28,991 nt of DNA from a virus (IMGVR_UViG_3300044825_002687:1-28991), one strand, 5' to 3'. Shown: positions 14,460 to 23,757, counted from the first letter of the stretch. Translations and numbers: made by a program. Notes: generated by a model from the letters alone, not told the origin.

Positions 14460-14929
14460 TTTTCTTTGAAAAGTTCCGCACGCGCTACCATTGTGCTTCC
14501 GTCATAGGGTTCCAACTCGTAATGTGTACCATTCATAATTTTAACCGGTCTGTATAGAAGTGCCATAAGATAATGAATGTTGTCTGTCAATTTATCGGGT
14601 TGTCCGAATACTTCCATATCTACCCATTGTCCCCAAGTCATATTTCCCCACTCATTTTCAATTCCGTAGGTAGTTTCACCTATTTTGAAGGTAAAAGTAA
14701 TTTCATCGGTGTTTGGTTCGAGAATGGTACTTGAAAGGAAACCCTCCACAACCTTTATCTGCTCAACGGGTAGACCTCGTAGTTCATCTTTGGTAATACC
14801 CAAGTAAAGTGCCAACAATTCTGTTTTGTCTTGGTATTTATTTGGGTTTTTCTGTAGGGATTGATATTTCCCTATTGTTAGTTCAGGGGAAACTTCAATG
14901 GGCTTACCATCTAAAATTACTTGTATCAT
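14231..14929 (-). CDS. Probable tail assembly chaperone, zero-frame product
   Basis: A 232-residue zero-frame product starting 4 nt inside the end of the TerL gene (ATGA overlap). Residues 1-168 look well formed: IQVILDGKPIEVSPELTIGKYQSL, a helical part (LLALYLGITKDEL), and MTWGQWVDMEVF...HYLMALLYRPV...ELEPYDG. After FFF at 169-171 the sequence becomes Lys/Arg/Thr-rich (TISKEYTTHLEN...), which looks like off-frame reading. A gene before the tape measure with a short product and a -1 shifted longer product is the hallmark of tail assembly chaperones (lambda G/GT type). I infer that role from arrangement rather than sequence similarity. Confidence 0.55.
   Translation of the reverse strand: MIQVILDGKPIEVSPELTIGKYQSLQKNPNKYQDKTELLALYLGITKDELRGLPVEQIKVVEGFLSSTILEPNTDEITFTFKIGETTYGIENEWGNMTWGQWVDMEVFGQPDKLTDNIHYLMALLYRPVKIMNGTHYELEPYDGSTMVARAELFKEKCPISFWFGASRFFFTISKEYTTHLENSLRWTTKMIKISQPILKILPKYLRVRALRAFTSTLPSDLQTGILRSFPN
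14417..14425 (-). promoter_or_regulatory. T9 slippery run, candidate -1 frameshift site
   Basis: On the minus strand the sequence is CGG TTT TTT TTT ACA in the zero frame. Slipping back one base gives TTT TTT TAC AAT, entering the extension frame. The run satisfies the X-XXY-YYZ rule for -1 slippage, and nine identical bases can also cause polymerase slippage. I did not find a clear downstream stem-loop by eye. Confidence 0.55.
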
Positions 14930-16080
14930 CTAATAACGAATTTTGGTTTTTTATTTCCTATAGTACTTTCCAAAATATAACGAATAGCATCTATAGTGTG
15001 ATTGTGGTCGTCTTCGGGGGCATCCAACAAGTCCCCGTTTTTATCGGTCTTCCATTTATAACTTTGGAACTCAAATAGAATATTTTTACTTTGTTCCGTA
15101 ATGTAAATATGATGACGACGAATAAGGTCTATTCCGTGAAGAATTGATTTTTTATTTACTGGCTTTGCGTTGAACTTTGCTCTACGCAATTCTTCTATAT
15201 TTTGTGGTGAGGCACTATCACACCAAATATGGTCTGTTTTTTCTATACCAAGTTCCTCCATTTTGTGAATGATGTCCACCATTGTCAAATTGCGAACATA
15301 GAGTAATTCGTGGAAAAAAAGTTGGTCGTCCATTTGATAAACCTCTATCAAAGTGGTTGGGTTGTTGAAACCCATATCCATTCCCCTACCTAATAATTTT
15401 GCTTCAGGGGGGACGTGTTGAATTGTGGTGAATTTGTTGAACACCAAAGTCATAGGTATTCCTCGTTCACCGAGATTGTAAATCCTATACAGGTTTTCGT
15501 CCTTTTCCTTGAGACTTTCCAACTCTGCTACAATACTATCCGCCACAAATGGATTATCTCGCCAGGTCGTCTTAAAATAGTATGTATCTTCACGCTTTTC
15601 AAGGTCATAAACCCAACTCGAAAGTTCAGAGGGGTTTAAGTCAAGAATGACCTTATCGGTGGTACGAAAAATAAGTTGGTTCCAATCTTCAAGAGTCAAT
15701 TCATTCGCCTCGTTACAATACAGATAATCTCGTTTCGAACCACGCAGTTTTTGTGGCTCGTCTACACTGAACCAATTTATAATATTCCCATTTAGTTCAT
15801 AGTACCCCTCTTGTTTGTGCCACTTTCGTTCATCGAATATGTTGAAAAGTTCAAGTATTTCCCGTAAATCCTTCAACACGGAGTTTTTCATTGCCGGTAA
15901 TGTTTTACGAACTATTGAAAGTGTTTTACCCTTTTCAAGAAGTAATTTATAAATCCAGTAAATAAGAATATTGTAGGTCTTGCCCGAACGGGAACCTCCT
16001 TGAGCCACAACCAAACGTTTACCGAGTTCGTCAGACTTGAGAATATTTTCAAATACTAAAGTGGTAGATATTGTTTTCAT
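14926..16080 (-). CDS. terL: Terminase large subunit (packaging ATPase-nuclease)
   Basis: A 384-residue DNA-packaging motor with an N-terminal ATPase and a C-terminal RNase H-like nuclease that cuts concatemers. Walker A is GGSRSGKT at 28-35. The Walker B/catalytic Glu is in LYCNEAN, near residue 124. Candidate nuclease metal ligands are Asp235 (GMDMGFNNP), Asp288 (WCDSASP) and Asp358 (EDDHNHTIDAIRY). The pattern fits the Terminase_3/PBSX XtmB-like family and its usual length of about 400. It overlaps the TerS gene upstream and the chaperone gene downstream by 4 nt each, so these are probably translated together. No insertion or intein is seen. Confidence 0.95.
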   Translation of the reverse strand: MKTISTTLVFENILKSDELGKRLVVAQGGSRSGKTYNILIYWIYKLLLEKGKTLSIVRKTLPAMKNSVLKDLREILELFNIFDERKWHKQEGYYELNGNIINWFSVDEPQKLRGSKRDYLYCNEANELTLEDWNQLIFRTTDKVILDLNPSELSSWVYDLEKREDTYYFKTTWRDNPFVADSIVAELESLKEKDENLYRIYNLGERGIPMTLVFNKFTTIQHVPPEAKLLGRGMDMGFNNPTTLIEVYQMDDQLFFHELLYVRNLTMVDIIHKMEELGIEKTDHIWCDSASPQNIEELRRAKFNAKPVNKKSILHGIDLIRRHHIYITEQSKNILFEFQSYKWKTDKNGDLLDAPEDDHNHTIDAIRYILESTIGNKKPKFVIR

Positions 16081-16340
16081 TTATATCCCCTCTTTTGACC
16101 TTTGGTTTTCAGGTAAAATTGTATTGCCGATAAATCCCCATTATTTATTAGGTTGAGCAATCTATTTTCAACATAGTCAAGCGACATTTCGTTTATACGA
16201 TTTATCTGTTCGACGAATAGTTTGTTCTTCCCCCATTCTTCGTATTCATCACGGGAAATACCGGTTTTCTGTAGTGCCACAGAAATTATTCCCAACGACC
16301 TACCTAATTCCTCAATAAAAAGTTCCTGTCTCTCATTCAT
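16077..16340 (-). CDS. terS: Terminase small subunit
   Basis: An 87-residue helical protein that starts 8 nt inside the end of the dioxygenase gene and overlaps terL by 4 nt. The pattern FIEELGRSLGIISVALQKTG followed by ISRDEYEEWG is an N-terminal helix-turn-helix. LDYVENRLLNLINNGDLSAI and FYLKTKGQKRGY form the oligomerisation part and basic C-terminus seen in many small terminases. It would bind the packaging start site and load TerL. The length is at the short end for the family. A second TerS-like gene lies at 20031-20441, so this phage may use two DNA-recognition subunits, or one of them may serve another role. Confidence 0.8.
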   Translation of the reverse strand: MNERQELFIEELGRSLGIISVALQKTGISRDEYEEWGKNKLFVEQINRINEMSLDYVENRLLNLINNGDLSAIQFYLKTKGQKRGYK

Positions 16341-17235
16341 TTACACGACTTTCTTTGAACTTATTTATTTCTTTTTTTGATAGTTTTTCAAGTTCCATTC
16401 CCCTACGCTTCAATTCTTCGAGATGCTCTACATCTAACATTTTCTTTTCACGCTCGGTTTTAATGTTCCGTATTCTAATCAACTCCTCATCTATTTCCTC
16501 GCACTTCCACAATTGCTCCAAAGAATAATAAACCACGGAGTATCTGTACCCTTCAGGGTCGTCATAGTGGATTTCGCTTACTCCGTGAAGAATATCTTGT
16601 CCGTTGAAAATGGTGAGAGTATTGTCTGCCACTTCCAAAGCAATATCCAAACTTGGGATACATAAATGCCCACCTGAAACCCCCTTTTTGAAAACAATCA
16701 TATTACTCAAAACACCCTTGAAATTACCTGCGTCGAAATGGTAATTCAACCGGTTATTTTTATTCACAATACCACTCGTGAAAGGTGTATTTTCTATTTG
16801 GTAATCTTCCAACACTTTTTCTTTTACCAAGTTTGCGTGTTTCTCGTAGGTTTCAGGAAAATATGTTTTATAGAATTGCTCTATTTCCTTGATAAAGTTC
16901 GTTAAGACGTAGTGTTGTTTTGGGTATTTCTTTGCCATTTCACTCAAACGACAATAGTCCGCAGTAATGGGGTTTCTCGGGTAGTATCCGAAAACGTTTG
17001 CTTGTTGTTGTAAACCACGAGTTCTTTTTGATTTGGGGTACTTTTGATTTTTCACAGCCCACCTTACCGCAGAGGTGTTTACGTCTTTTAGTGATGCGTA
17101 TAAAACAACCGGTTCATCATTTACGTAAATTATAGTATCTTCCTTTATAATGGTCGTTACATCGGAAATAAATGCCGTTGCCTTCTTGTATTTTTCAAGG
17201 TCAAATTCTTTGAATTGTAGGTCTAATCTTTTCAT
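16333..17235 (-). CDS. TET/JBP-family 2-oxoglutarate/Fe(II) dioxygenase
   Basis: A 300-residue protein with the core motifs of the Tet_JBP oxygenases, which hydroxylate the 5-methyl group of thymine or 5-methylcytosine in DNA. Iron ligands are His166 and Asp168 (NYHFDAGN) and His217 (NGQDILHGV). Arg231 (YRYSVVYYS) is the predicted 2-oxoglutarate anchor. The distances (H-x-D, then 49 residues to His, then 14 to Arg) are close to those I recall for JBP1 and TET2. SGGHLCIPSLDIAL between the ligands and GLQQQANVFGYYPRN (74-88) also match the family. The C-terminal 60 residues are charged helices of unknown role. It lies between a glycosyltransferase and terS. No methyltransferase is present nearby. 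A protein hydroxylase is the main alternative; prolyl hydroxylases normally use Lys about 10 residues after the last His, which is not seen. Confidence 0.85.
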   Translation of the reverse strand: MKRLDLQFKEFDLEKYKKATAFISDVTTIIKEDTIIYVNDEPVVLYASLKDVNTSAVRWAVKNQKYPKSKRTRGLQQQANVFGYYPRNPITADYCRLSEMAKKYPKQHYVLTNFIKEIEQFYKTYFPETYEKHANLVKEKVLEDYQIENTPFTSGIVNKNNRLNYHFDAGNFKGVLSNMIVFKKGVSGGHLCIPSLDIALEVADNTLTIFNGQDILHGVSEIHYDDPEGYRYSVVYYSLEQLWKCEEIDEELIRIRNIKTEREKKMLDVEHLEELKRRGMELEKLSKKEINKFKESRVNE

Positions 17236-17247
17236 ATCTATAAATAT

Positions 17248-17997
17248 TTAATCGGGTAATTTTATTTTTACCACCGATTTATTCATCTTCAATTCGGTAT
17301 ATTCACTTTTACGACCTTCATTTATGGAAAAAATGTTGGGATACATTTCAACCAATTTATTTGAAGCCACAAATTCCATATCTGACCTTTGTTGTTTCTC
17401 CGTCTGCATCCCCCCTTTAGTTTTATAATTGTTTGTTTTACAGGACAAAAAATTAAAACGAGCAACTCGTCCATAAACTTTGTGGAAAAGAATACTTCGT
17501 TCATAGTCATTCTTTGTTTCAAGAATACAATTTAAGTTTTCTGTTTTTTTTGATATAAACCCGAACATATTTGCCACCAAATAGGTCAGTCCCACTTCAA
17601 TATCTTTTTTCATAAAGAATAAATTACTTGAAGGGTAAATCCCCCACGCTTCTATTTTGTGTTTGCCACAGAAATTAAAAATATACCACAAAACGTTTGA
17701 TAAATGCCGTTCGTAAAGGTCTTGTACTTCCTTTACGTCGTCTTCCAAAACAACTACCCATTCCCCTTCACTGAAGTAATTCTGTACGAAGTTGAACTTC
17801 TCTTTCACCGACTTTGTATTTGTCAAAACCAAATTATACTCGGGGTATAGTTCCTCGTACAATTTGTAGTCCTCGTCATCGCTAATGAAAAGGTAGATAT
17901 TTTCTTTGTCGAAATCCTTTAGGGTATTCAAAGTCAAATTACCGATAATATCACTTCTTCGGTGGGTTGGTATAGCAAACTTATATTTCATCGGCAA
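17248..17997 (-). CDS. GT-A glycosyltransferase, probably TET-associated type
   Basis: A 249-residue protein starting with FAIPTHRR (7-14), the usual first strand and loop of a GT-A glycosyltransferase. ENIYLFISDDEDY (32-44) and VVVLEDDV (81-88), a DxD-like metal/nucleotide-sugar site, follow. The C-terminal half has DYERSILFHKVYGRVARF (164-181) and YKTKGGMQ (191-198), which resemble the acceptor-side motifs of TAGT enzymes encoded beside phage TET/JBP oxygenases. It would transfer a sugar onto a hydroxymethylated base. It lies directly before the dioxygenase gene (12-nt gap) and overlaps the HAD-kinase gene by 17 nt. There are no membrane segments, which argues against lipid-linked cell-wall work. 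Acceptor and sugar cannot be read from sequence. Confidence 0.75.
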   Translation of the reverse strand: MPMKYKFAIPTHRRSDIIGNLTLNTLKDFDKENIYLFISDDEDYKLYEELYPEYNLVLTNTKSVKEKFNFVQNYFSEGEWVVVLEDDVKEVQDLYERHLSNVLWYIFNFCGKHKIEAWGIYPSSNLFFMKKDIEVGLTYLVANMFGFISKKTENLNCILETKNDYERSILFHKVYGRVARFNFLSCKTNNYKTKGGMQTEKQQRSDMEFVASNKLVEMYPNIFSINEGRKSEYTELKMNKSVVKIKLPD

Positions 17998-18922
17998 TGT
18001 TGTTTATAATACTTGTGTATTCGGGTTTATATTTTGATACTCTCAACCCCTCTGCTACGGCAAAGTGTTTCACAAGTTCCCCGAATGCCTCTACGAGCAT
18101 TTGAGCACCAAAGTGGTCTTGGTTGTAAGCGATAAGTGAAAAATATGTTTTACCCGCATCGGTCAAATACGAGCCGAAAACATTTTTGTAGTTGGGGTCT
18201 ATCAACCAAGTACGCTCATTTTTCAAGACGTTTGTTGTTGAGAGGTCTCCGTGAAAGAAAGTACCTGGATGGTTAGGCAAAGTACTAATCAATTCTCGTA
18301 CCTTTTGGGTGTTTTTCGGATGTACTACCAATCTGTCAAGATACGTTTGAAACGGGTAATTTGGTATTTGTTCGTGCCTGAACTCTTCAATTAGATTGAT
18401 GTAGTCAATCACTCGTGGTTTCATACTCTCACTAATGCGTTCAGTGATTATTGTTTCATCATTTACAAACAAAACTTCAGGAACGTTAAAACCTCTCAAC
18501 CTCGCAATGTCATACCATTTTTTCTCGAATATAGAGGACTTCGACTTCTTGATGACTGAACCATTCGTAAAAAGTATTTTGTTGTCTGTAAAAGGAGATA
18601 AATGGGGTATAAACTCATCATTCGGTCGGATGGTCATATCGTCAATGTAGAGGTCTCCATATTCTTTGTTGAAACTTATCTCATCGAAGGGGACTTGGTA
18701 GGTTTCCAAAAATTGTTTTATCAAAGCATAATATTTGCGTTCCTTTTCCCCCACGCTCAAATTAGACTTAGCGCCCCGTGCGGTACAGACCACAATATAA
18801 CACTCGTACTCTTGTTTCAATCTTTTCAACCTTTCAATCAACGCATAATTGGGTTCAGCCGAGGTTATGTATCCGGTTAAACCCCCAGCCAAAGTTCCAT
18901 CAAAATCAACAACTATTCTCAT
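17981..18922 (-). CDS. HAD phosphatase fused to APH/choline-kinase-like phosphotransferase
   Basis: A 313-residue two-domain enzyme. Residues 1-105 form a small HAD domain with DFDGT (6-10), TAR (47-49), Lys86 or a nearby Lys, and IDD (93-95), as in capsule-locus HAD phosphatases. Residues 115-310 look like an aminoglycoside phosphotransferase/choline kinase fold: an N-lobe with Lys125/126 (GSVIKKSKSS), the catalytic loop HGDLSTTNVL (224-233) with Asp226 and Asn231, and the metal-binding LIDPN (240-244). The pair could phosphorylate a small molecule or a glycan and remove phosphate from another intermediate. HAD-kinase fusions next to nucleotidyltransferases occur in bacterial capsule loci, recalling LicA/LicC-type phosphocholine pathways. 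Inside a phage packaging operon this is unusual. It overlaps both neighbours (4 and 17 nt). Confidence 0.75.
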   Translation of the reverse strand: MRIVVDFDGTLAGGLTGYITSAEPNYALIERLKRLKQEYECYIVVCTARGAKSNLSVGEKERKYYALIKQFLETYQVPFDEISFNKEYGDLYIDDMTIRPNDEFIPHLSPFTDNKILFTNGSVIKKSKSSIFEKKWYDIARLRGFNVPEVLFVNDETIITERISESMKPRVIDYINLIEEFRHEQIPNYPFQTYLDRLVVHPKNTQKVRELISTLPNHPGTFFHGDLSTTNVLKNERTWLIDPNYKNVFGSYLTDAGKTYFSLIAYNQDHFGAQMLVEAFGELVKHFAVAEGLRVSKYKPEYTSIINNIADEI

Positions 18923-19467
18923 ATCTCTTTTTTTATTGCTTCCAAATAATCTTCCCTGTCCCCCAAACGCACAAATGTATCTTCAAAATATACTTTTGGT
19001 TTATCCATTCCCGAGATTACGGAATTATCATCACTCATTCGTTCGAGGAGTTTTGAAACACTCTTGATGAAATAAGCACCTGATAATTTATTTTCCCAAG
19101 TGCTTTGTTTCTCGGTACTTTCAACCACCAAACCATTCTCAATCTTTACCGAACCGTATTTTTTTTTCGTTGAAGTGAAACAAACCACTTCATCGGTCTT
19201 GAATGAAAGCTCGGGCATTCCAAAAGGTATAATATCACAATCAAACAATAATACATTATTCCAACTGCGTATCTCGTTGAGAGTTTCCCTCCGACTTTTG
19301 GTTTTATTTACCCCGATTGTATAATGATTAGGGTATATTGTGCCTATCCAGTCAATTATCGTTTTATCCCAAAAGTAGAGGTTTTGTTTCTCAAGATTAC
19401 TCAAACACTTCAACCGACTACCACTACCTCCCACGCTAACGACAACGTTAATCTCGGTCATTTTCAA
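18919..19467 (-). CDS. Sugar/phosphoalcohol nucleotidyltransferase-like protein
   Basis: A 182-residue protein with the nucleotide-binding loop VSVGGSGSRL (10-19), a following Lys27 (NLEKQNLYFWDK), a metal-binding DCD (76-78, VLLFDCDIIPFG), SGAYFIK (129-135) and an end segment YFEDTFVRLGDREDYLEAI. These are, in order, the landmarks of NTP-transferase enzymes that join a sugar-phosphate or phosphocholine-like group to an NTP. It is shorter than the usual 220-260 residues, so the acceptor-binding part is reduced. The first loop has GGSGSRL in place of the common AGGxGTRL. It probably prepares an activated donor for the glycosyltransferase or for a phospho-group transfer. ATG 19467 gives MKMTEINV; the in-frame ATG at 19461 is an alternative start. 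Confidence 0.7.
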   Translation of the reverse strand: MKMTEINVVVSVGGSGSRLKCLSNLEKQNLYFWDKTIIDWIGTIYPNHYTIGVNKTKSRRETLNEIRSWNNVLLFDCDIIPFGMPELSFKTDEVVCFTSTKKKYGSVKIENGLVVESTEKQSTWENKLSGAYFIKSVSKLLERMSDDNSVISGMDKPKVYFEDTFVRLGDREDYLEAIKKEI

Positions 19468-20041
19468 GATAGTAATTCATTAGGAAGATAAACGCTTCGG
19501 TATTTGTCTTGAACCTTTTACCTTCCATAACTTGGTCTAATTTATTTATTGCCTCCTCGTATTCAGCCTGACTGAAAAACAGAGTGATTCTGCGTATTTG
19601 GGAGTCCAAATACTTTTCAAGTTTTCGACTTAAAACGTCCTCATCTATCTCGGGCTCCATTTCATCGTCCATTACCCACGCAGGTATTTCTAAACCCCAG
19701 TCCGATACTACAGAAACATCCCAACTCGTTGAGATGCTATCCCAATTCCATTCTCCATAGTTGACGTTGTCCTTCACTACGAACTCCCTCTTTTTTGCTT
19801 CGTCCAAGTTTGAGAAACGGATAATGGGAATGTCCTTGTATCCAAGTTCCTTTAGTGCTCGCAATCTCATATTTCCACCGATAACCACAAGGTTTTCATC
19901 TACCACCAAAGGACGAGCCTCTAACATTTCGGGGAACTCTTGAATTGATTTTTTCAATTTCTCAAGTTGGTCTCCTTTTATAACTCGGGGATTATCAGGA
20001 TTTGGTTTTATTGTTTCAATATTTACTACCTCAATTTTCAT
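19448..20041 (-). CDS. ParB-like N-terminal domain protein
   Basis: A 197-residue protein. Residues 5-75 are a ParB/Srx-type domain: IKPNPDNPR (11-19), LKKSIQEF (29-36) and VVIGGNMRLRALKELGY (52-68). The GGNMR motif corresponds to the nucleotide-binding GxxR box. Residues 90-125 (VNYGEWNWDSIS...WGLEIPAWV) match the extension common in phage ParB-like proteins encoded near DNA methylases. The rest is acidic and helical. No C-terminal ParB dimer domain is seen, so plasmid partition is unlikely. As the first gene of the modification cassette it could be a DNA-binding or NTP-hydrolysing accessory factor. It overlaps the TerS-like gene (11 nt) and the nucleotidyltransferase gene (20 nt). Confidence 0.8.
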   Translation of the reverse strand: MKIEVVNIETIKPNPDNPRVIKGDQLEKLKKSIQEFPEMLEARPLVVDENLVVIGGNMRLRALKELGYKDIPIIRFSNLDEAKKREFVVKDNVNYGEWNWDSISTSWDVSVVSDWGLEIPAWVMDDEMEPEIDEDVLSRKLEKYLDSQIRRITLFFSQAEYEEAINKLDQVMEGKRFKTNTEAFIFLMNYYLENDRD

Positions 20042-20441
20042 TTGGTCTTACAATTTCAATTTTTATAGGTTCAGCATTTATCTGTTCTCCTTGGCTCGTT
20101 ACGTCCAAACGAGTGCTTTCGCTCCAATTATCAGGGAACTTGTTGCGAACAATCAAACTCCATAGTCTCGAATTAAATCCCTGTCCTCCGTCCTTTTCCA
20201 TTGCTCTATGTGCTAAATTATACCAATAATTCTCACATAAAGTTCGGTATTCTTGAACGGCTCTGGAATATTCTGGGTTTCTTTTCATCATAGCGTAGTG
20301 CTGGTCCCAAGATAAACCCAAAGTCAAAAGGAACTCGGTAATGTGTTTTCCCTCTAAACCACTTTGAAGGATAATCTCCTTCCAAACGGGGTTCATATAG
20401 GTTTCTGTGCGGGGTCTACCCCTTTTTTTTGGTTCGTTCAT
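20031..20441 (-). CDS. Second terminase-small-subunit-like DNA-binding protein
   Basis: A 136-residue protein. The N-terminus KKRGRPR (5-11) is an AT-hook-like motif. A helical part with SWDQHYAMMKRNPEYSRAV (helix-turn-helix-like) follows, then NSRLWSLIVRNKFPDNWSES and a C-terminus with TSQGEQINAEPIKIEI. This C-terminal pattern occurs in small terminase or packaging proteins of several phage groups that I recall. It starts 1 nt after the MGCNC gene and overlaps the ParB-like gene by 11 nt. With the shorter TerS at 16077-16340, it brackets the modification cassette. It might be the true packaging-site binder, or a regulator that links DNA modification to packaging. Confidence 0.6.
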   Translation of the reverse strand: MNEPKKRGRPRTETYMNPVWKEIILQSGLEGKHITEFLLTLGLSWDQHYAMMKRNPEYSRAVQEYRTLCENYWYNLAHRAMEKDGGQGFNSRLWSLIVRNKFPDNWSESTRLDVTSQGEQINAEPIKIEIVRPNEN

Positions 20442-22406: not shown

Positions 22407-22447
22407 TCACAAAAGCCAAGAATACCCCAAAAAAAATTGATTAATTT

Positions 22448-22479
22448 TTTGTTTTTCTCGAATACTTTTTGTATTTTTG
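22448..22479 (+). promoter_or_regulatory. Bacteroidota-type promoter for the plus-strand island
   Basis: TTTG (22448-22451), a 20-nt spacer, then TATTTTTG (22472-22479) match the consensus TTTG-N17-23-TAnnTTTG fully. The predicted start point near 22485 leaves a very short leader before ATG 22491 or 22497. It rules out the earlier TTG at 22437 as the start of the first gene. Confidence 0.6.
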
Positions 22480-22496
22480 GTTATATTTATATGTAT

Positions 22497-22823
22497 ATGG
22501 GAACTTCAAAGTCTGAACAATATCTTAAACGCAGAATGTGGCGGGAAGATGGTCTATACTATTTTTGTAATCTTTGTGGAGATTATAAACTTGAAACAGA
22601 GTTTTACAAAAGTAAAAACACTCCCTTTGGTATTACCTATAAGTGTAAATTACACTACAAAAAGGACGACAATAGTACCAAAGAATTTGACCATCTGAAA
22701 TTATCCCCCATCACTGATGACGATTTTCTTGGGGCACAGATACTCTTGGAAAATCTCGGGTATAAGTTCGGAGCCGACCAACTTCCCGTATGGAAACAAT
22801 TTGAAATAAAACATAATCTCTAA
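22497..22823 (+). CDS. Small zinc-finger-like protein A
   Basis: A 108-residue protein starting MGTSKSEQYLKRR. The frame is open from a TTG at 22437, but the promoter at 22448-22479 lies inside that extension, so ATG 22497 (or 22491) is the likely start. A CNLCG motif and a downstream C-x-x-H (CKLHY) could form a Cys3His zinc site like those in phage zinc-ribbon or endonuclease VII-like proteins, but no nuclease residues are evident. The C-terminus (FLGAQILLENLGY...LPVWKQFEIKHNL) closely resembles that of the protein at 23255-23542, so the two are paralogues. It is the first gene of the plus-strand island and probably an early regulatory or host-takeover gene. Confidence 0.6.
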   Translation: MGTSKSEQYLKRRMWREDGLYYFCNLCGDYKLETEFYKSKNTPFGITYKCKLHYKKDDNSTKEFDHLKLSPITDDDFLGAQILLENLGYKFGADQLPVWKQFEIKHNL

Positions 22824-22835
22824 AACACAAACAAA

Positions 22836-23252
22836 ATGACTGGAGCACACAAATGCACCTACCGAGACGCACTTCATATAAAGTTGATGATTTCCGAAGG
22901 TCTAACCAATTCCGAAATACATAAAACATTTATTTCCGAAAAGGGTCACCAAATATCCCGAGCACATATTGATAAAATACGCAAGGGGCAAAGATGGAAC
23001 TCTAAAATCTATTCCTTCGTTCCAAAGGACGAATTGAAAAGTTTGAAAAAATTGACCACCAAAATTAACGATGGTTCAGTCTTTCATTCGGAGATAGGTA
23101 AGGTCATCACATATACCGACGAGAAGTGGATTTATCTTCATTTTAAGGACACTTTATTAGTAAGACAGGAAACCTACCTTATAAAAGATGAAAAGACGGC
23201 TGTGGACAATTTTGCAGAAGCACATCATCTTTTTGTAAGTCAGTATTTATAG
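22836..23252 (+). CDS. Helix-turn-helix DNA-binding protein
   Basis: A 138-residue protein. Residues 7-50 (YRDALHIKLMISEGLTNSEI...ISRAHIDKIRKGQRWN) form a typical helix-turn-helix: a helix, a turn after GLTNSEI, and a recognition helix starting ISRAHIDKI, followed by the basic KGQRW seen in phage and homing-endonuclease DNA-binding domains. Residues 55-138 are a mixed alpha/beta part with no known motif and no catalytic residues. It sits between two paralogous zinc-finger genes and is probably a repressor or activator. Its nearest non-coding target is the structured segment upstream. Confidence 0.6.
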   Translation: MTGAHKCTYRDALHIKLMISEGLTNSEIHKTFISEKGHQISRAHIDKIRKGQRWNSKIYSFVPKDELKSLKKLTTKINDGSVFHSEIGKVITYTDEKWIYLHFKDTLLVRQETYLIKDEKTAVDNFAEAHHLFVSQYL

Positions 23253-23254
23253 GA

Positions 23255-23542
23255 ATGAAACAGAAAAACTTGGAAATAGTTGATGGCGTTGAGTGGTGCC
23301 TTTGTAGTGCTTGTGGTACAAAGAAGATTTGTGAATTGAACTTTTACTACGACAAACGTCACAACTATTTTACGAATGTTTGTAGGCTCTGTATGAATGC
23401 TCAAAAGAGAGACAAAAATTATATTCCCAAATACCCGCCAGGGGATATACTTCAGTCGAAACAAGTTTTACGTTTAATTGGCTATGACCCTGATAGTAAA
23501 ATACCTGTTCACGAACAATTCAATCTAAAACACGACTTATGA
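23255..23542 (+). CDS. Small zinc-finger-like protein B (paralogue of A)
   Basis: A 95-residue protein with two CxxC pairs, CSACG (17-21) and CRLCM (43-47), an ordinary Cys4 zinc-ribbon pattern with YYDKRHNYF between them. The C-terminus (ILQSKQVLRLIGYDPDSKIPVHEQFNLKHDL, shown here only as pattern) aligns with protein A as xxLxxxGY...PVxxQFxxKHxL. It begins 2 nt after the HTH gene and overlaps the next gene as ATGA. Nucleic-acid or protein binding is inferred; no HNH or nuclease motif is complete. Confidence 0.6.
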   Translation: MKQKNLEIVDGVEWCLCSACGTKKICELNFYYDKRHNYFTNVCRLCMNAQKRDKNYIPKYPPGDILQSKQVLRLIGYDPDSKIPVHEQFNLKHDL

Positions 23543-23757
23543 CGGAGTTCGACAAAGACCTTCAATACATCACTCACATTTTCAACCGGTCTAACACAAT
23601 ATCGGAGTTAAATGAATTGAGAAGATTATTCAAACATTTCTTGGATAAGTGGTCTGTACGGCTTTCACCAACAGACCCAACATTCATAAAAATAAAACAA
23701 GACTGGGGTGAAAAAATAGAAGAAAAATACAAAAAAATCTCAAAATTGTATATTTAA
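23539..23757 (+). CDS. Small helical protein, unknown function
   Basis: A 72-residue, Lys/Glu-rich, helical protein (ISELNELRRLFKHFLDKWS, EEKYKKISKLYI) with no known family. Its ATG overlaps the stop of protein B by 4 nt, so translation is coupled and it is likely real. Confidence 0.5.
   Translation: MTEFDKDLQYITHIFNRSNTISELNELRRLFKHFLDKWSVRLSPTDPTFIKIKQDWGEKIEEKYKKISKLYI

Follow-up and report, generated by a model that had tools for sequence, protein, structure and literature searches.

The virus sequence IMGVR_UViG_3300044825_002687, an incomplete contig of 28,991 bases (the window, to whose full length all coordinates refer) that comes from a bacterial virus, has next to its terminase genes a cassette for a ParB-like protein, a nucleotidyltransferase (NTase), a HAD phosphatase-kinase fusion, a TAGT-like glycosyltransferase and a Tet_JBP dioxygenase (TET). 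Sequence and fold comparisons give good support to the view that this is a DNA hypermodification system in which TET and TAGT are joined by a LicA/LicC-like donor-making pair, and the recurrence of the gene set, the fusion of its enzymes and their intact motifs agree with an original prediction, made from the sequence, of a cassette with a LicA/LicC-like kinase and NTase. We regard as probable the whole pathway that these genes suggest, in which TET oxidizes a pyrimidine (thymine being the likeliest), the kinase, HAD phosphatase and NTase (the donor triad) make a nucleoside diphosphate (NDP)-sugar, and the TAGT-like enzyme transfers the sugar to yield a glycosylated base. The five open reading frames lie on the predicted strand and span, and overlap or abut:

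19448..20041, minus strand: ParB_N-domain protein, 197 residues (PF02195, 1.5e-7; phrog_498/620/940, 1e-24 to 1e-26)
18919..19467, minus strand: compact sugar-1-phosphate/CTP-type NTase, 182 residues (motifs and fold match)
17981..18922, minus strand: fusion of a HAD phosphatase (residues about 1-110) with an APH/LicA-fold small-molecule kinase (residues about 112-313) (TIGR01689, 1xpj, fold)
17248..17997, minus strand: TAGT-like GT-A glycosyltransferase, 249 residues (PF20691, 1.2e-4; phrog_842, 9e-10)
16333..17235, minus strand: Tet_JBP 2-oxoglutarate/Fe(II) dioxygenase, 300 residues (PF12851, 1e-15)

The listed starts of the NTase and TAGT-like genes are TTG codons, each with an in-frame ATG two codons later (19461 and 17991, respectively).

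The dioxygenase matches Tet_JBP (PF12851) with 57.8 bits against a cut-off of 34.9 (E 1e-15), and its Fe(II)/2-oxoglutarate residues H166-x-D168, H217 and R231 are invariant across 11 homologues, so that its predicted assignment to TET/JBP holds. The reaction that best fits this enzyme would be hydroxylation of a DNA pyrimidine at its 5-methyl group. The ParB_N match (PF02195, 1.5e-7) is above the Pfam cut-off, and ParB adjoins TET in the relatives of the window and in actinophages; because of this constant partnership, ParB is probably the DNA-binding or targeting part. The TAGT-like gene shares its neighborhood with TET in the window and in relatives, and its product matches phrog_842 (9e-10), has a DD motif (D86/D87) that is invariant among homologues, and is 48-57% identical to TAGTs that all accompany the donor triad.

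Direct sequence searches with the NTase gave no useful match in Pfam, PHROG, NCBIfam or PDB. Its motifs GGSGSRLK...K (GGxGxR..K) and DCD are mostly conserved in 14 homologues, and its model (pLDDT 87.7) resembles LicC, GlmU and UDP-glucose pyrophosphorylases (Z about 16-17, the top scores being 17.0 for LicC, 1jyl, and 17.0 for GlmU); it thus combines the GGxGxR...K and DxD motifs and the NTP transferase fold of sugar nucleotidyltransferases. The HAD part matches the NCBIfam model of the EcbF/BcbF capsule phosphatases (TIGR01689, 5e-12, below the model's own cut-off) and PDB 1xpj (6e-9). Its residues D6, D8, T47, D94 and D95 are invariant in 14 homologues, as are H224, D226 and D242 of the kinase part, with N231 nearly so; the kinase motifs read HGDL..N and IDPN. 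In the model of the whole HAD-kinase protein (pLDDT 88.5), choline/ethanolamine kinases, LicA, methylthioribose kinase and aminoglycoside kinases are tied as matches to the kinase part (Z about 14), with LicA and choline-ethanolamine kinase scoring best (Z 14.1-14.2). The LicC and LicA matches are best or tied with sugar enzymes, at 10-15% identity. The catalytic residues of TET, HAD, kinase and NTase are intact.

A survey of relatives, which the original prediction had proposed, found the same gene set in many viral records, and because of this recurrence the cassette is not a chance grouping. A TET scan returned 24 viral loci at 54-64% identity to the window TET, with ParB preceding TET wherever the sequence extends that far and terminase genes following the cassette. 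As single-sequence queries, neither the NTase nor the TAGT of the window found relatives in viral contigs; with two-sequence alignments as queries, the NTase and HAD-kinase scans found the two-gene module in many such contigs, some with TET and some without. Module, TET and TAGT occur together in L042-L044 and L051/L052 (L numbers denote loci), in the order ParB-TET-TAGT-NTase-HAD-kinase in L042/L044 and ParB-NTase-HAD-kinase-TAGT-TET in L052 and most of L073-L086. When the TAGT of L052 was used for scanning, 14/14 contigs carried the donor triad upstream and TET followed in 13/14, the exception being L076, where the fetched stretch ends. Two genes, NTase and HAD-kinase, are the commonest form of the donor module. 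In L085, a single 621-residue NTP_transferase (PF00483, above cut-off)-HAD-APH protein stands between ParB and TAGT-TET, and the cultured Synechococcus cyanophage S-CBWM1 has TET, TAGT, HAD, NTase (NTP_transf_3) and APH kinase as five separate adjacent genes. Scans of four bacterial genomes with the HAD-kinase matched the HAD part only, and the same genomes contained no three-domain fusion of the L085 type. Fusion in some genomes and re-assembly from different families in others lead us to conclude that the three enzymes probably form one pathway making a glycan donor. TET-free examples of the NTase-HAD-kinase pair lie in phage glycan-like loci, and on a Legionella plasmid a kinase-HAD-NTase set adjoins WavE lipopolysaccharide (LPS) enzymes, which likewise suggests that the triad is a glycan-donor maker. 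In L034:3896-7508, L036 and L038, where TET is absent, the neighbors of the NTase-HAD-kinase pair are DUF6065, RuvB and a 2OG-Fe(II) oxygenase, in what looks like a glycan-like pathway.

The TET of S-CBWM1 (PF12851, 4e-18) is annotated as an "SNF2 DNA repair protein", and the genes of Cr30 and DLP_6 that resemble it are probably Tet_JBP-type dioxygenases as well. L062:776-1744 and many mycobacteriophage genes annotated "queuine tRNA-ribosyltransferase" (the name of phrog_6059) are of the Tet_JBP type by similarity.

The genes between ParB and TerS2, the second of two TerS-like genes flanking the cassette, vary among relatives: L004 has a lone TAGT, L002 and L024 have different putative transferases (about 260 residues), L017 has a P-loop kinase, and L019-L023 have GATase, GNAT, ADDT and P-loop kinase, with GNAT missing in some. 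The window and L017 are 73% identical in TerL, 63% in TET and 47% in ParB, and in L017 the P-loop kinase replaces the trio of NTase, HAD-kinase and TAGT. Because the trio is 46-55% identical between the window and L052/L079, although the TETs are only 28% identical, it appears to move as a unit. In the TET tree, the set of glycosyltransferase plus triad sits on four separate TET lineages, the deep joins with the long branches of S-CBWM1 and Melnitz being unsure; other phages have put the set together several times over. The simplest reading of these comparisons is that a ParB-TET backbone received the trio whole, by exchange, and ParB-TET beside terminase is, on this evidence, a platform where tailoring genes are swapped. 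Nigel was considered as a TET without tailoring genes and rejected, since its annotated "TerS" is a P-loop kinase (PF18751, 2.9e-72). Ploopntkinase3 proteins beside TET in Nigel (L062:1786-2382), Indlovu (L089:3045-3611) and Terij (L065:1577-2155), annotated as terminase small subunit, adenylate kinase or HicA-like toxin, are probably DNA-base kinases.

We propose that the phage decorates its own DNA after replication. ParB would hold or guide TET on the DNA, and TET would hydroxylate the pyrimidine, most likely thymine to 5-hydroxymethyluracil (5hmU). The APH-fold kinase would act on a sugar, either free or already phosphorylated, the HAD enzyme would remove a second phosphate, and the NTase would couple the resulting sugar-1-phosphate to a nucleotide to form an NDP-sugar, whose sugar the TAGT-like enzyme would then attach to the hydroxymethyl base. 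The outcome would be a glycosylated base that resembles base J but bears a non-standard sugar. Such a base may block restriction enzymes and perhaps Cas nucleases too; that it shields the phage from restriction or CRISPR is a plausible prediction.

The earlier reader had left the target base open, and the relatives favor thymine over 5-methylcytosine (5mC), through the company of kinase and ADDT genes and the rarity of the C5-methylase domain PF00145. TETs that are 54-63% identical to that of the window, and in the same supported clade, adjoin a P-loop kinase (L017) or kinase plus ADDT (L019-L023); the window itself has neither a 5hmU DNA kinase nor PPlase/ADDT. The ADDT of these relatives matches proteins of Salmonella ViI-like and other Ackermannviridae phages (group members are listed in PMC6336734/PMC11721090), and ViI DNA contains 5-NeOmdU, which derives from 5-hydroxymethyldeoxyuridine (5hmdU; PMC6449724). 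In actinophages, ParB-TET sets include aGPT-PPlase2 and 5hmU DNA kinase, and have been interpreted as thymidine hypermodification (PMC11955845). PF00145 was absent from 44 of the 45 records scanned (the window and 39 others, 0/40, then five more; most of these are, like the window, fragments). S-CBWM1 and 13 further complete isolates are among the 44, and the one positive record is Melnitz-1, where the domain adjoins TET. Of 31 records, only Cr30 was positive for PF00303, and neither the window nor its relatives carry it. Thymine is therefore favored as the modified base, short of proof. In Caulobacter phage Cr30 (L070), a TET-like gene is followed some 3 kb downstream by one that is TAGT-like; the phage also encodes an inositol-1-phosphate synthase and a member of the thymidylate synthase family, which may point to a further way of modifying bases.

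An alternative that we consider unlikely, but which has some precedent, is a cytosine route in which TET oxidizes 5mC, made by a host or an unseen phage methylase, and TAGT glycosylates the resulting 5-hydroxymethylcytosine. Phage TET/TAGT systems are known for cytosine hypermodification, the TAGT family is named from TET systems (PF20691 description), and Melnitz-1 places a C5-methylase next to TET; however, no PF00145 was found in the window, in 39 similar records or in the complete S-CBWM1, PF00303 is missing from the window and its relatives, and TETs of the same clade keep company with kinase plus ADDT.

As to the added group, the original prediction offered a phospho-group or an unusual sugar, and the sugar has fared better: the kinase, HAD and NTase feed a GT-A enzyme and the cassette is without a LicD-like transferase, so that an NDP-sugar fits better than a transferred phospho-group. 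In NDP-heptose synthesis, HddA/GmhB/HddC divide the work among the same three activities, kinase, HAD phosphatase and NTase, and for this reason we propose an intermediate sugar with two phosphates; given the comparative evidence for thymine, the modified base would look like base J carrying an unusual sugar. It is distinctly improbable that the donor is instead CDP-choline, CDP-ethanolamine or a similar CDP-alcohol, with a phospho-alcohol added to the base or to the sugar. Such a donor would suit the best fold matches, Z 17.0 for LicC and Z 14.1-14.2 for LicA/choline-ethanolamine kinase, but sugar kinases, GlmU and UDP-glucose pyrophosphorylase give tied scores, no LicD-like domain was found among the scanned cassette and neighboring proteins, the cassette's own transferase is of the GT-A glycosyltransferase type, a Lic route has no use for the HAD step, and the fused form in L085 contains the sugar-nucleotide domain PF00483. 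That the NTase, HAD-kinase and glycosyltransferase act on a host surface glycan or a virion protein, with TET an unrelated neighbor, is hardly credible, since, despite the NTase-HAD-kinase pairs without TET in phage glycan loci, TAGT is a TET-associated family and the TAGT subclade and the triad accompany TET in every contig of sufficient length, across several gene orders and separate TET lineages.

Several points nevertheless count against the pathway of thymine oxidation and glycosylation that we prefer. The TAGT-like protein scores 22.6 bits for PF20691, below the curated cut-off of 27.5; its close relatives, which adjoin TET, are also weak (25.6-26.1 bits), and the S-CBWM1 homologue gp9 is above the cut-off at 40.6 bits. 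The sugar is not specified by fold, as LicA and LicC tie with sugar kinases and pyrophosphorylases. Melnitz-1 combines a C5-methylase, TET and a related P-loop kinase, so that a P-loop kinase alone does not prove thymine, and the case for 5hmU specificity of the kinase homologues is weakened. Because the contig is incomplete, a C5-methylase or hydroxymethylase may lie at a distance, and 5mC could also come from a methylase of the host. We infer the base, the sugar, the order of kinase and HAD steps and the protection, whereas genes, motifs, folds, recurrence and exchange are observed.

Kinetoplastid base J (JBP1/2 and J glucosyltransferase) follows a common logic, from thymine to 5hmU to glycosyl-5hmU. 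Base J uses host UDP-glucose; the donor in the window would be phage-made and the enzyme is TAGT-like, with thymine here the probable base. As in phage TET/JBP-TAGT cytosine systems, a 5-methylpyrimidine would be oxidized after replication by a 2-oxoglutarate/Fe(II) enzyme and then glycosylated by TAGT, but the cassette differs in having no detected C5-methylase, a dedicated donor triad, and ParB and terminase neighbors. LPS and capsule kinase-HAD-NTase modules (Legionella plasmid, HddA/GmhB/HddC) have the same three activities beside glycosyltransferases; their products go to surface glycans, and the window kinase differs in being APH-fold and fused to HAD. The ParB-TET-TAGT-PIG-L sets of the actinophages Acadian, Indlovu and Prairie (terminase being adjacent in Acadian and Indlovu) also combine TET and TAGT with a sugar-tailoring enzyme, but a deacetylase points to an N-acetylated sugar being trimmed and not to synthesis of a new donor. 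PIG-L deacetylases with ParB-TET-TAGT in actinophages (L087:2438-3025, L088, L089) suggest a glucosamine-type DNA decoration. The Tonitrus and Wooper actinophage cassettes (PMC11955845) share ParB-TET ahead of terminase and a predicted thymidine hypermodification, with TET about 30% identical, but their ParB-TET-aGPT-PPlase2-5hmU DNA kinase set points to phosphorylation/PPlase tailoring and not to glycosylation with a made-to-order donor. Phage capsule clusters with sugar kinase and NTase modules have been described, with TET/JBP reported as absent from jumbo phages (PMC7824862).

Thus, TET/JBP with TAGT in phages and actinophage ParB-TET thymidine systems are already known, and the joining of a donor triad to a TET system appears undescribed in the literature that we found, a search that fell short of key earlier papers. 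We see an even balance for and against the broader proposition that the cassette is a phage counterpart of base J with a self-activated sugar and that ParB-TET is a general docking platform beside terminase, onto which a kinase, an amino-acid transferase, a glycosyltransferase alone or a glycosyltransferase with donor synthesis can be swapped. If true, there would be a new DNA base, thymine oxidized in place by TET and glycosylated with a phage-activated sugar; the cassette would be a bacterial-virus parallel to trypanosome base J, with modular exchange on a fixed ParB-TET platform, and its enzymes could serve as DNA-labeling tools. The prediction is directly testable because the cultured S-CBWM1 carries the same gene set.

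The cassette lies between two TerS-like genes, as predicted; their position is confirmed, and both TerS identities are weak:

20031..20441, minus strand: TerS-like gene 1, TerS1 (phrog_309, 1e-4 only; weak call)
16077..16340, minus strand: TerS-like gene 2, TerS2, helix-turn-helix (phrog_24579, 3e-5; PF13022 below cut-off; weak call)
14926..16080, minus strand: terminase large subunit, TerL (PF04466, 2.9e-23)

On the minus strand the order is TerS1, ParB, NTase, HAD-kinase, TAGT-like, Tet_JBP, TerS2, TerL, with intergenic gaps of -11, -20, -4, -17, +12, -8 and -4 bases (negative values are overlaps). The suggested link to packaging stands as a conserved location beside packaging genes; a role in packaging was considered, position being all that speaks for it. 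Opposite the main operon, on the plus strand at 22437-23757, are small genes that weakly resemble endonuclease VII and HNH endonucleases.

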